NCBI GenBank assembly: GCA_030590165.1
Contig: JAUUZA010000030.1
Location: 1 to 8,181, forward strand
From: Candidatus Altarchaeota archaeon
Lineage (GTDB): Archaea; SpSt-1190
DNA: 8,181 bases
Reading direction: 5' to 3'
In this document: positions 1,853 to 6,177 of the stretch, in pieces
Layout of the letters: each line of letters starts with the position of its first letter
How positions within the stretch are numbered: position 1 is the stretch's first letter
Program-made: the position numbers and the translations under genes
Notes under the pieces: model-generated
Database searches by the model: none
What the model was told of the DNA's origin: nothing
What the model saw: only the letters and a program-made list of their open reading frames with translations

Positions 1853-2434
1853 ATGGGATTCGCAATTGATTTTGCATCACTCGTCCTTGGTTATCTTTAT
1901 GTTTCCTTAGCAATATTTCTCCATGAAAAAATTAGACGGAAATATGATGAATTTGTTTCAAGAAAAATTTTACATATTTTAGTTGGTAATGCCATACTTA
2001 TTCCCTTAATAATGGGCGCTAGTATTTGGGCCGCGGCTTTACCTTCATTCAGTTTTCTTATAATTAACACCATACTTTTGAAAAAACAATTTTGGAAAGG
2101 ATGGGAGGGAATTATCTCTTATCCTTTTTCTGTCTTAGTTTTAACTTATTTTGGATACACTTTCGATTTCATTTATTTACTCTTACCTATTTTCATTCTC
2201 GCTTATGGAGATTCTTTTGCTTCATTAATGGGAAAACTCATGTTCAAATCAGAGAAGAAAAGTCTTCAAGGAAGTCTTACTATGTTCCTAACAACTTTTG
2301 CAATTTCATTAGTATTTCTTAATCCCATTCAAACTTTGGCTGTTGCCCTTGTTGCAACTTTAGTTGAGGGTTCAAAGTGGGATAATCTTACAATCCCATT
2401 TGCAGTTGCTGGAACACTCTACTTAATTTTGTAA
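1853..2434 (+). CDS. CTP-dependent polyprenol kinase, SEC59/VTE5 family (dolichol/phytol kinase-like)
   Basis: This 193-residue integral membrane protein of the COG0170 dolichol/phytol kinase family has several hydrophobic helices. Known members use CTP to phosphorylate dolichol, phytol or related isoprenoid alcohols. Family motifs are visible: a cytoplasmic SRKILH near 36-41 after the first helix, GDSFASLMGK at 119-128, the KKSLQGS nucleotide-site motif at 135-141, and EGSKWDNLTIPF at 172-183 with acidic E172 and D177. All expected polar residues are present, so the protein should be active. The length is short but normal for archaeal and plant-type members. The ATG lies about 25 bp after a TATA box with no Shine-Dalgarno sequence, consistent with leaderless translation. 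It is divergent from DUF362, and the stop codon TAA abuts the terminator of the opposing tRNA-Pro transcript. The exact alcohol cannot be read from the sequence; geranylgeraniol, phytol-like alcohols and dolichol are all possible. Confidence 0.8.
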   Translation: MGFAIDFASLVLGYLYVSLAIFLHEKIRRKYDEFVSRKILHILVGNAILIPLIMGASIWAAALPSFSFLIINTILLKKQFWKGWEGIISYPFSVLVLTYFGYTFDFIYLLLPIFILAYGDSFASLMGKLMFKSEKKSLQGSLTMFLTTFAISLVFLNPIQTLAVALVATLVEGSKWDNLTIPFAVAGTLYLIL

Positions 2435-2492
2435 AAACGTCAACGGATTTCGAGGAGCCCGAGCGAAGCGAGTGGCGACGAAGAAATCGGTT
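2433..2492 (-). terminator. GC-rich hairpin plus T-run after tRNA-Pro (element A)
   Basis: Pairing (plus coordinates): AAC 2442-2444 with GTT 2490-2492, a G/G mismatch, GATTTC 2446-2451 with GAAATC 2483-2488, and GCC 2457-2459 with GGC 2474-2476. The apex CGAGCGAAGCGAGT lies at 2460-2473. On the minus strand the hairpin is followed by TTTTT (A's at 2433-2437). This is a plausible terminator for tRNA-Pro, and it overlaps the stop codon of the convergent kinase gene. The architecture matches the element after tRNA-Arg at 2960-3030. Confidence 0.6.
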
Positions 2493-2565
2493 GGGACCGC
2501 TGGGATTCGAACCCAGAGCCACGAATTCCCGAAACTCGCATGATACCAGATTACACTACGGTCCC
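2493..2565 (-). tRNA. tRNA-Pro (anticodon CGG)
   Basis: Read on the minus strand, the acceptor GGGACCG pairs with CGGTCCC. The anticodon stem CGAGT/ATTCG encloses loop TTCGGGA, with anticodon CGG at plus positions 2529-2531. The T-arm CTGGG/CCCAG has loop TTCGAAT. The 5-nt variable loop is TGGCT. The discriminator is A (2492) and CCA is not encoded. The D-arm layout resembles that of archaeal tRNA-Pro. The total is 73 nt, with no intron. Confidence 0.9.
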
Positions 2566-2587
2566 TTAGAAACATTACTTAATTAAA

Positions 2588-2597
2588 TATTATTAAA
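2588..2597 (-). promoter_or_regulatory. Possible TATA box for tRNA-Pro
   Basis: The minus strand reads TTTAATAATA here, centred about 27 bp upstream of the mature tRNA-Pro 5' end. This is the position expected if transcription starts at or near the first tRNA base. The whole 38-bp gap to the upstream small gene is AT-rich, so the match is suggestive only. Read-through from the upstream gene is the alternative. Confidence 0.35.
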
Positions 2598-2604
2598 GTT
2601 AGCT

Positions 2605-2895
2605 TCACAAAATTTTTTTGTAAGTATTTGAAAATAATTCTGGAACCCAATCATCGGAATGTTCTAAAATTCGTTTGAGACTTTTATCTTCTGCATTAAT
2701 TGACAAAAGACAAACATTTTCCAATTGCTTAGAAAAAGTTTCAATTAAATTAGAATGTCTTTCTAAATTAAGGTCAAGACCATAGGTGTCTATTCTTTCA
2801 ATATAAACTTCACTTCCTCGATTTTCGTATAATATTGTTGCTGAAAATCCATTTTCCTTTTTAAATTTTGACCGCGTATTAAATTCAGGAGACAT
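2605..2895 (-). CDS. Hypothetical protein, 96 aa
   Basis: I do not recognise this family. The predicted product is a small soluble protein with no signal peptide, membrane helix or metal-binding cysteine cluster. Its only Cys lies in a hydrophobic strand-like stretch (VCLLSIN). The layout suggests a mixed alpha/beta fold: a basic N-terminus (FNTRSKFKKENG), two strand-like segments (FSATILYENRG and SEVYIERID), a helix, another strand, and a charged C-terminal helix ending in lysines. It lies alone between tRNA-Arg and tRNA-Pro on the same strand. The start ATG (CAT at 2893-2895) has an AGAAGGAT purine stretch just upstream and a TATA-like palindrome about 24 bp away. Codon composition looks like its neighbours. 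It could be lineage-specific, and position alone gives no function. Confidence 0.6.
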   Translation of the reverse strand: MSPEFNTRSKFKKENGFSATILYENRGSEVYIERIDTYGLDLNLERHSNLIETFSKQLENVCLLSINAEDKSLKRILEHSDDWVPELFSNTYKKIL

Positions 2896-2913
2896 ATCCT
2901 TCTATATTTTGTC

Positions 2914-2924
2914 ATTTTAAAATA
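2914..2924 (-). promoter_or_regulatory. Possible TATA box for the 96-aa hypothetical gene
   Basis: The palindromic ATTTTAAAAT core is centred about 24 bp upstream of the start codon at 2895. This matches the spacing seen for the other first-in-operon genes in this window. The surrounding DNA is AT-rich, so confidence is limited. Confidence 0.35.
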
Positions 2925-2959
2925 TTAATTAATTACTAACATAACACCTGAAATTTACT

Positions 2960-3030
2960 CAAGGTTTTCGAGCGGAGCCCGAATCCCGCGTAGGGAAGGA
3001 GCGGGAGAAGGGCGTAGTGAGAAAAACTTG
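2960..3030 (-). repeat. GC-rich hairpin after tRNA-Arg (element B)
   Basis: Pairing (plus coordinates): CAAG 2960-2963 with CTTG 3027-3030, one mismatch, TTTTC 2965-2969 with GAAAA 3021-3025, GCCC 2977-2980 with GGGC 3010-3013, and an apical stem TCCCGC 2984-2989 with GCGGGA 3001-3006 closing an 11-nt loop. The outermost pair uses the last acceptor base of tRNA-Arg (3030). It shares outer architecture and the words TTTCGAG...GAGCCCGA with element A at 2442-2492, but has an extra apical stem. No long T-run follows on the minus strand. Confidence 0.6.
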
Positions 3031-3103
3031 AGCCAAGGGGGATTTGAACCCCCGATCTATGAGTCCGAAGCCCATCGCAGTATCCAAGCTGTGCTATTGG
3101 CCC
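3030..3103 (-). tRNA. tRNA-Arg (anticodon TCG)
   Basis: On the minus strand the acceptor GGGCCAA pairs with TTGGCTC, including one G-T. The anticodon stem ATGGG/CTCAT encloses loop CTTCGGA, giving anticodon TCG at plus positions 3066-3068. The T-arm GGGGG/CCCCC has loop TTCAAAT. The discriminator is A (3029) and CCA is not encoded. The total is 74 nt, with no intron. It would read CGA and other CGN codons, depending on wobble modification. Confidence 0.9.
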
Positions 3104-3124
3104 ATTACTACTTCAAATTTTTAG

Positions 3125-3134
3125 AATATAAAAC
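3125..3134 (-). promoter_or_regulatory. TATA box for tRNA-Arg
   Basis: The minus strand reads GTTTTATATT, a strong archaeal box A, centred about 26-27 bp upstream of the mature tRNA 5' end at 3103. That spacing predicts transcription starting at or within a few bases of the tRNA. Confidence 0.6.
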
Positions 3135-3164
3135 TAAGGAAAAAAATTAAATCAGAGAGTAAAG

Positions 3165-3171
3165 AATAAAA
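3165..3171 (+). promoter_or_regulatory. Possible TATA box for DUF92 gene
   Basis: AATAAAA is centred about 25 bp upstream of the ATG at 3193, the same spacing as the other predicted leaderless starts here. No Shine-Dalgarno sequence precedes the ATG, which is preceded by a T-run. The motif is weaker than the other boxes. Confidence 0.4.
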
Positions 3172-3192
3172 CCCAGTAGTAAGTAATTTTTT

Positions 3193-4473
3193 ATGAACTT
3201 CAATGCTTTTATTCCCTTACTTCCTTTAATGGCTGGTTTTCTTGTACGGTTTTTTTTAGAAGAAGACTGGAAAAGAGAAGTCGAAAAAGCTCTTTTTACA
3301 GGAGTTCTCCTTTTTGCAATTATACTCGGACTTAATTTTTCTGTCCTTCTTTTTTACTCAAGTTTAGTAATCTTAGCTTCCCTTGAAACAAAAACAATCT
3401 TCAGTTCAATATTTGGAGTCATTATAACTATCTTTGCTTATCTCGTTGCCAATCCTTTATTTTCAATAATTCCACTCGCATTGACAGGAATTGCAGAACC
3501 CTTAGCTCAATTCATAAACAGAATTTCAAAACGAACTTCACGTGGGTTCGGCTGGGCAATTTTCATGTCAACATTTTCAATAGCCGTGGCTTCATTTTTA
3601 TTTGTTTCTCTTGGACCAATCAATCCACTTTGGGGAGTACTCATAGGATTAATTGCAACATGGGCTTCGCATCTTGATACCAGATATGACAGTGCATATG
3701 TACTCATTGCAATGGGTTTCATTTATGGTGCACCTTCAGCCATAGTAATGGGATTTGGAATTAGTTTAATTTCAAGTTCACTTGCATACTATCTCAAATC
3801 ACTTGATTTCAATGGATTAGTTGGTGGAGTTCTTGTTGGAACCCTTGTCTTTGGGGCATCTCCTCTCCTCTTCTTCATAATGTTTGCCTTCTTAGTTTCA
3901 GCATCAATCCTTGGGAAAAAATCAAAACACAAAGACAATCGTTTTCATCAAAAAGGAAAAAGAAATGCAATTCAAGTACTTGCAAATGGATTTGGGCTCT
4001 CACTTGCCTCTCTTTTAATTCTTTCAGGATTTGATGCAATCGGAATGGGAATTGCTGCAGTAGCAGCATCAACTGCAGATACTTGGGCAACTGAACTTGG
4101 AAGTAGAAGTAAAAGAAAACCACGACTCATAACTACATTCAAATTTGTTGAAAAAGGAAGAAGCGGTGGAATAACACCCAAGGGTCTAATAGCAAGTTTA
4201 CTTGGCGGAACTTTTATTTTCATACTTACTCTTCCTTTCTATGGCTTTTTGTATTTAGCACAGGGACTCGTCGGTGGGGCACTTGGTTCACTTGTTGATT
4301 CATTAATGGGAGCTACTTGTCAAGGACTCTACAAATGTAGAATGTGTAATAAAATAACAGAGAACGAGACTCATTGCGGGAAAGCCACCATTCTTGAAAA
4401 AGGTTTGAGTTGGATGAATAATGATATGGTTAACTTACTTTCATCCATTATTGCAATGGCGGTGTTTATCTGA
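3193..4473 (+). CDS. DUF92 (VTE6-like) membrane protein with a degenerate SEC59/VTE5-like N-terminal domain
   Basis: This 426-residue polytopic membrane protein has a canonical DUF92/COG1836 C-terminal half from about residue 207. Visible there are KRNAIQVLANG (256-266), AASTADTWATELGSR (291-305), GRSGGITPKGLIASLLGG (322-339), GSLVDSLMGATCQ (365-377), a possible metal site C382xxC385...HC395, and a final GLSWMNNDMVN. Plant VTE6, a DUF92 member, is phytyl-phosphate kinase, which suggests CTP-dependent phosphorylation of an isoprenyl monophosphate. The first 200 residues are several helices that align with the kinase encoded at 1853-2434. GIAEPLAQFINRI (99-111) matches GDSFASLMGKLMF and SHLDTRYDSAYVLI (159-172) matches EGSKWDNLTIPF, but the GD and KKS residues are lost. 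The next gene starts 5 bp after the stop, implying co-transcription with Rpr2. The exact substrate is unproven. Confidence 0.8.
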   Translation: MNFNAFIPLLPLMAGFLVRFFLEEDWKREVEKALFTGVLLFAIILGLNFSVLLFYSSLVILASLETKTIFSSIFGVIITIFAYLVANPLFSIIPLALTGIAEPLAQFINRISKRTSRGFGWAIFMSTFSIAVASFLFVSLGPINPLWGVLIGLIATWASHLDTRYDSAYVLIAMGFIYGAPSAIVMGFGISLISSSLAYYLKSLDFNGLVGGVLVGTLVFGASPLLFFIMFAFLVSASILGKKSKHKDNRFHQKGKRNAIQVLANGFGLSLASLLILSGFDAIGMGIAAVAASTADTWATELGSRSKRKPRLITTFKFVEKGRSGGITPKGLIASLLGGTFIFILTLPFYGFLYLAQGLVGGALGSLVDSLMGATCQGLYKCRMCNKITENETHCGKATILEKGLSWMNNDMVNLLSSIIAMAVFI

Positions 4474-5604: not shown

Positions 5605-6177
5605 ATGAAAGAAAGAATAATAGTAGTCCCATTAAGAAAAGCAAGGAGAGGAACAAGCAGAAAGTTTGCCTCAAAAGCAGTAAGATATTTACGAAGTTTC
5701 ATTAGTAGACATATGAAAACTGAGGAAGTTGTAATTGAAAAAGAACTCAATGATTATATTTGGAGGAATGGAATAACCAACCCACCAAGGCGTGTTGAAG
5801 TTAAAGCCATCGTAAAAGAGGGAATTACTCATGTTGACTTAAGTTCAGCTAAAATTAAATTAATTAAAAAAGAAGCTGAAAATAAAAAGAAGAAACCAGT
5901 AGCAAAAGCAGAAAAAAAGACTGAAACAAAAAAGAAATCTGTAAAAAAGATTAAGAAGAAAACAGTAAAAACTGCTAAAAAGAAACCAGCAGCTAAACAA
6001 AAGAAAAAAGAAACAGTAAAAAAACCAGTTGCAAAGAAAAAGAAAGTGACAAAAAAACCTGTCACCAAAAAACCAGTTAAGAAAAAAGCAACAAAAGCAA
6101 AAAAACCTACTGTTAAAAAAACTGTAAAAAAGACTGCAACTAAAAAAACGGTAAAAAAATCACCGGCTAAAAAATAG
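5605..6177 (+). CDS. rpl31e: 50S ribosomal protein L31e with a long lysine-rich C-terminal extension
   Basis: L31e sits near the polypeptide exit tunnel of archaeal and eukaryotic large subunits. Residues 1 to about 87 form the complete conserved domain: IIVVPLRKARRGTSRKFASKAV, then YLRSFISRHMK, IEKELNDYIWRNGITNPPRRVEVKA and HVDLSSAKIKL (the two longer blocks are contiguous conserved stretches at 5-26 and 45-69). The family is normally about 80-95 residues, but here the frame continues to 190. Residues 88-190 are low-complexity Lys/Ala/Thr/Val/Pro, with 51 lysines in 103 positions and recurrent KKPV, KKTVKK and AKK units like histone H1 tails. No folded domain is visible in the tail, and it is probably disordered and able to bind nucleic acid. 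It is the last gene of the S19e operon, and its stop codon lies within a terminator hairpin. Confidence 0.93.
   Translation: MKERIIVVPLRKARRGTSRKFASKAVRYLRSFISRHMKTEEVVIEKELNDYIWRNGITNPPRRVEVKAIVKEGITHVDLSSAKIKLIKKEAENKKKKPVAKAEKKTETKKKSVKKIKKKTVKTAKKKPAAKQKKKETVKKPVAKKKKVTKKPVTKKPVKKKATKAKKPTVKKTVKKTATKKTVKKSPAKK

Follow-up and report, generated by a model that had tools for sequence, protein, structure and literature searches.

Two genes on an 8181-bp stretch of archaeal DNA raise the question of where reduced archaea that lack an isoprenoid pathway get their isoprenoids. The stretch, an entire contig that was analysed at full length, is here called the window. Its parent genome (G000; 724 kb in 64 contigs, estimated to be 87.6% complete) was compared with six relatives from the same family (G001–G006), individual loci being denoted by L and a number. 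The lineage, SpSt-1190, has been treated as a DPANN phylum with the alias Candidatus Altiarchaeota (2024 paper, PMC10936187), the relatives named among the species genomes that we scanned were ‘Candidatus Altiarchaeota archaeon DPANNHV_H2’ metagenome-assembled genomes and SpSt-1190, and the archaeon of the window is small and apparently host-dependent. One of the two genes encodes a free-standing kinase of the COG0170 type and the other a DUF92 protein, the two families that in plants and cyanobacteria comprise phytol kinase (VTE5; COG0170) and phytyl-phosphate kinase (VTE6; COG1836/DUF92) (PMC9782597). A sequence-only reading of the window had proposed that the pair activates isoprenoid alcohols in two steps. 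We found that the active kinase occurs in exactly those genomes of the family that lack geranylgeranyl diphosphate (GGPP) synthase, and we propose, at about even odds (a probability of roughly 0.5), that membrane-bound two-step prenol salvage by the kinase and DUF92 stands in for the lost synthase, chiefly feeding cis-prenyltransferase. The enzymes themselves are of known kinds; what is new is the exclusive pattern of GGPP synthase and kinase, with the apparent swap that it suggests, and a pseudokinase domain in the DUF92 protein.

GGPP synthase is missing where the active kinase is found

GGPP synthase (PF00348) was present in G002, G003, G005 and G006, in each case at one conserved locus with the gene order DHH-family gene, GGPP synthase, archaeosortase-like gene, the contig of G006 ending inside this locus. 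It was absent from G000, G001 and G004, where the DHH and archaeosortase-like genes lie on contiguous sequence from which the synthase gene is cleanly missing, so that a break in the assembly does not explain the absence. Among the seven genomes, exactly these three were found to carry the active kinase, which we term kinase-1. On a tree of SecD, SecF and DHH proteins G000 grouped with G003, G005 and G006 (support 100) and G001 with G004 (100), so that at least two separate events are needed to explain the pattern. This suggests, with moderate confidence, that GGPP synthesis has been replaced by prenol salvage in the kinase-1 genomes, in which case the swap would have run from synthase to kinase. 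The sequence-only reading had named GGPP synthase as a gene to search for in the source genome, and the pattern goes beyond what it claimed. In addition to its GGPP synthase between the DHH and archaeosortase-like genes, G005 encodes a second, divergent PF00348 protein (L100, 4387–5430).

Several points weigh against replacement by salvage. The family sample is small and incomplete (n = 7, genomes 72–90% complete), and the exclusivity of kinase-1 and GGPP synthase reached only P = 0.029 in Fisher's test, uncorrected for relatedness and perhaps reflecting two independent events. Across 121 archaea, DUF92 was positively associated with GGPP synthase (71/104 genomes with the synthase versus 5/17 without, P = 0.005), so salvage usually accompanies synthesis rather than replacing it. 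Furthermore, the cis-prenyltransferase would require isopentenyl diphosphate (IPP), for which no source was visible, and in the literature covered we found no proven short-prenol substrate for an archaeal COG0170 or DUF92 protein. It could be argued that the presence of kinase-1 and the absence of the synthase coincide by chance, both being what uneven gene loss has left behind in genomes that are small and incomplete, the more so as other genes are patchy too (cis-prenyltransferase, for example, is missing in G002). We consider coincidence rather unlikely, since in each of the three genomes the locus without the synthase is contiguous and in other respects intact, and since the chance, from completeness, that the kinase would be absent from the other four is about 0.10 × 0.28 × 0.13 × 0.15 = 0.0005.

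Co-occurrence of the two kinase families among the same 121 archaea, which the earlier reading had offered as a check, gave a mixed answer: DUF92 occurred in 24 of 32 kinase-positive and 52 of 89 kinase-negative genomes, a weak association (P = 0.14; kinase matches came from one single-sequence query, which is insensitive, and not from a COG0170 profile), next to the stronger tie of DUF92 to GGPP synthase.

Kinase and DUF92 are fused in relatives and in bacteria

In G001 a kinase 45% identical to that of the window is joined to DUF92 in a single open reading frame (ORF) of 454 residues, and in G004 a kinase–DUF92 fusion is split across two contig ends with its middle missing. Scanning 84 980 species genomes, we also found such fusions in KSB1, Neomarinimicrobiota, Calditrichota and other groups; 38 of the 39 bacterial fusions tested carried all eight core kinase residues, as scored by alignment columns, since a strict regular expression undercounted them. 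With an active kinase fused to DUF92 in G001, G004 and 38 bacterial loci, the pairing is not due to chance, and the fusions argue for the two-step kinase pair that had been proposed from the window. Archaeal COG0170–DUF92 fusions had been described before, together with a proposed isoprenoid kinase step (Makarova, Galperin and Koonin 2015, PMC5898192). A 2011 survey had filed COG1836 under phytol-phosphate metabolism (PMC3223725).

The free-standing kinase has an intact set of core residues

The kinase gene (1853–2434, + strand) is, as the sequence-only reading had stated, a complete ORF, encoding a standalone protein of 193 residues and eight helices that we assign, from core residues, tree and structural model, as a COG0170-type (SEC59/VTE5-like) prenol kinase, predicted to be CTP-dependent. 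No Pfam or NCBIfam model matched it, PF01148 included. It holds all eight COG0170 core residues in order (R37, H41, D120, K136, G140, E172, D177 and N178), and R37, H41, D120, G140, E172, D177 and N178 are all of the residues found to be invariant in an alignment of 21 other archaeal COG0170-type proteins. The motifs had thus rightly been called intact, with one correction: the ‘EGS’ that had been pointed out lies at residues 172–174, where the Glu alone is conserved, while the family motif K-S-x-(E/Q)-G-S reads KSLQGS in this protein, Gln being common at the Glu site of KSxEGS among relatives and DUF92-fused kinases.

In a phylogenetic tree the window kinase and the fused kinase domains of G001 and G004 formed one clade (support 0.986), separate from a further, longer COG0170 protein found in the family. 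For the model of the window kinase (predicted local distance difference test score, 92) the top structural match was CdsA (4q2g/4q2e), a CTP-using member of this superfamily with a solved structure. The match extended over 151 residues with Z 8.7, a lead of about 2 on the runner-up, where values below 13 call for caution with helical proteins. For a helical bundle this speaks for a CdsA-like fold but is no proof of it. Foldseek gave no significant match for either the kinase model or that of the DUF92 protein, and a sequence search for relatives of solved structure returned nothing beyond one chance match.

This second COG0170 protein, of about 300 residues, was found in every family genome but G004 and G006, hence in five, and forms a clade of its own (L062, L064, L068, L070 and L071). 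At L062 (3856–5997), and equivalently at the other four loci, its gene adjoins a flap-endonuclease-like gene, and near it in most of those genomes lies a gene for a Rossmann-like protein that has no Pfam or NCBIfam match and resembles the start of geranylgeranyl reductase.

The DUF92 protein carries a decayed kinase domain

The DUF92 protein is encoded by a complete ORF of 426 residues (3193–4473, + strand). Its residues 190–421 matched PF01940 with an E-value of 1.5e-55 and 188.7 bits against a gathering cut-off of 27.5, and the domain (3760–4455, + strand; VTE6-like), a predicted prenyl-phosphate kinase, keeps all 32 columns that do not vary in an alignment of 26 sequences from archaea and bacteria, including ADTWATE, SGG, DS..GA and CxxC..HC. 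The earlier description of a DUF92 protein with its family motifs consequently holds for this domain; what it missed is the N-terminal part of about 190 residues (3193–3759, + strand). TIGR00297, an NCBIfam hypothetical equivalog within DUF92, scored 90.6 bits, below its curated cut-off of 205.85.

This N-terminal part occupies the position held by the active kinase domain in the G001 fusion. Because a sequence search with it matched only G003 and G005, profile comparison and fold were required to tie it to the kinases. In one profile–profile comparison it matched the kinase profile with a probability of 91.9 and an E-value of 7e-7, and residues 10–180 of its model matched CdsA (4q2g) with Z 8.2 over 143 residues, the longest among the top-ranked matches for this part. 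Of the eight core kinase residues just the R and one D are retained. We therefore read the first 190 residues or so as a decayed kinase domain, probably with a CdsA-like fold, that has lost its catalytic residues. Comparable decay of the kinase domain was seen within the family in G002 and G005, and outside it in long archaeal DUF92 proteins (G016, G038, G058 and G118). As a separate observation, the unassigned N-terminal halves of long DUF92 proteins from distant archaea (L008, L009, L014, L017, L019 and L072) resemble decayed COG0170 domains, that of L009 having GDCAAS and ESIPSNVDDMFSVPL. We do not favour the idea that the free kinase docks on the pseudokinase domain, since G002, G003 and G005 have kept the domain although a free kinase was not found in them.

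Comparison with known kinase pairs

Like VTE5 and VTE6 of plants and cyanobacteria, the window pair combines the same two families, in the same proposed order of reactions and with the conserved residues intact in both. Unlike that system, it comes from a non-photosynthetic archaeon without chlorophyll, and its DUF92 protein bears the decayed kinase domain. Mbar_A3310 of Methanosarcina barkeri, likewise archaeal, has both domains arranged as in the window protein and a predicted isoprenoid kinase role (PMC5898192); its kinase domain keeps the aspartates, whereas that of the window protein has decayed and the active kinase is encoded on its own, in a genome without the mevalonate pathway. The very reactions proposed for the window pair have been measured in an archaeon, as geranylgeraniol and geranylgeranyl-phosphate kinase activities of Sulfolobus acidocaldarius (1996, cited in PMC9385802), the genes behind them not being identified in the literature covered. 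A PF01940 search of the S. acidocaldarius genome gave no match, and a different enzyme family must therefore be responsible for the geranylgeranyl-phosphate step in that organism.

These comparisons also bear on whether archaeal DUF92 might instead be another CTP-using transferase of the CdsA superfamily, making for instance a CDP-activated lipid from the product of the kinase. Both families are CdsA-like, judging by our kinase model and by the HHpred placement of DUF92 in that superfamily (PMC5898192), no assayed archaeal DUF92 protein was found in the literature covered, and S. acidocaldarius has the activity without DUF92. Still, plant VTE6, a DUF92 protein, does make phytyl diphosphate (PMC9782597), and the domain order of the kinase–DUF92 fusions fits two successive phosphorylations. 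We regard such a transferase as improbable.

Isoprenoid genes point to sugar carriers as the probable sink

None of the family's seven genomes gave a match to HMG-CoA reductase or mevalonate kinase, whereas each of 14 outgroup genomes matched both (G008 below the cut-off for mevalonate kinase), in agreement with the earlier statement that the pair would act without the full mevalonate pathway. Geranylgeranylglyceryl phosphate synthase (PF01884) was likewise absent from all seven. Retained were a UbiA-type prenyltransferase (7/7; the G000 protein is closest to decaprenyl-phosphate phosphoribosyltransferase, although under the cut-off of that model), cis-prenyltransferase (6/7, missing in G002) and a CarS-like protein (6/7); in G000 the cis-prenyltransferase gene adjoins a Glycos_transf_4 gene and a CDP-alcohol transferase gene lies two genes downstream of CarS. 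From this gene content, the building of archaeol from scratch looks lost, with lipid finishing and sugar-carrier metabolism kept, and for that reason we favour the priming of carriers over the purpose ‘for lipid synthesis’ that had been suggested for the pair and that is probably wrong: cis-prenyltransferase and users of polyprenyl phosphate are the likelier sink for salvaged prenols.

Proteins resembling isopentenyl phosphate kinase are encoded in three of these genomes without the mevalonate pathway, at L096 7873–8619 (G005), L099 8653–9180 (G003) and L190 7899–8642 (G004). Those of G005 and G004 scored 96 and 86 bits against a cut-off of 120, and that of G003 was recognized by eye and BLAST; the HGGGSFGH motif, also judged by eye, is intact in the G003 protein alone, those of G004 and G005 having altered versions. 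The G000 contig ends where its relatives hold this gene.

Retention of carrier-using enzymes in G000 would also suit polyprenol recycling, in which the kinase would regenerate the sugar carrier as a dolichol or polyprenol kinase, DUF92 would serve some other step of carrier metabolism, and loss of GGPP synthase would reflect general reduction. Dolichol kinase does belong to COG0170, and DUF92 has been linked to uppS (PMC5898192), a context seen here only weakly, at 2 of 30 archaeal loci, both in related genomes and with a cis-prenyltransferase fragment without the DGN motif. Recycling requires only the monophosphate, which would leave the fused DUF92 kinase without a role; the job could be done by the second COG0170 protein of about 300 residues, and exclusivity with GGPP synthase is not predicted. 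Recycling is in our view fairly unlikely.

Under the favoured explanation, that of short-prenol salvage, the 193-residue kinase would use CTP to phosphorylate a short-chain prenol, geranylgeraniol or similar, derived from a host or from recycling, and DUF92 would convert the resulting prenyl monophosphate to the diphosphate. In a lineage without the mevalonate pathway, allylic diphosphate would come from this route in place of the lost GGPP synthase. Its main user would probably be not archaeol synthesis but cis-prenyltransferase, whose polyprenyl-phosphate sugar carriers would serve the Glycos_transf_4 enzyme encoded next to it and the phosphoribosyltransferase of the UbiA type. With the fused kinase domain decayed in the window protein, the first step would fall to the free-standing kinase.

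Gene layout in the window

Between the kinase and DUF92 genes, which are about 760 bp apart, lie the two tRNAs and one small gene already noted in the sequence-only reading: tRNA-Pro (CGG; 2492–2565) and tRNA-Arg (TCG; 3028–3104), both identified with ARAGORN, and from the ORF list a 96-residue ORF (2605–2895) that matched no Pfam or NCBIfam family. As all three are on the minus strand, the kinase and DUF92 genes are not one operon. A tRNA-Arg gene immediately precedes the DUF92 gene in G005 as well. The DUF92 gene leads a run of translation genes (Rpr2, S19e, PDCD5-type, L39e, L31e and eIF6), with which it looks co-transcribed because its stop codon is only 5 bp ahead of the RNase P Rpr2 gene.

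The L31e protein of this run (5605–6177) has its ribosomal part at residues 3–72, followed by a tail of about 115 residues rich in Lys, Ala, Pro and Thr that resembles a histone H1 tail. Similar tails were found in G001 (L063, 9217–9711) and G004 (L065, 2042–2650).

Implications

The observation from which this analysis started stands with corrections, and its interpretation is supported in part. If salvage is right, genes would be named for isoprenoid salvage in reduced archaea, in which evolution would have traded one synthase for two kinases, and two large archaeal families, COG0170 and DUF92, would gain a testable substrate; the geranylgeraniol kinase activity long known from archaea would also gain candidate genes. 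More tentatively, and with some doubt, we suggest that this DPANN-type lineage independently replaced GGPP synthase at least twice by a prenol-salvage pair, that archaea without the mevalonate pathway may prime their carriers from scavenged geranylgeraniol-type alcohols, and that the DUF92-fused kinase domain is a pseudokinase whose role was taken by a separate gene. Such a domain would also account for the unassigned N-terminal half seen in many of the long DUF92 proteins of archaea.

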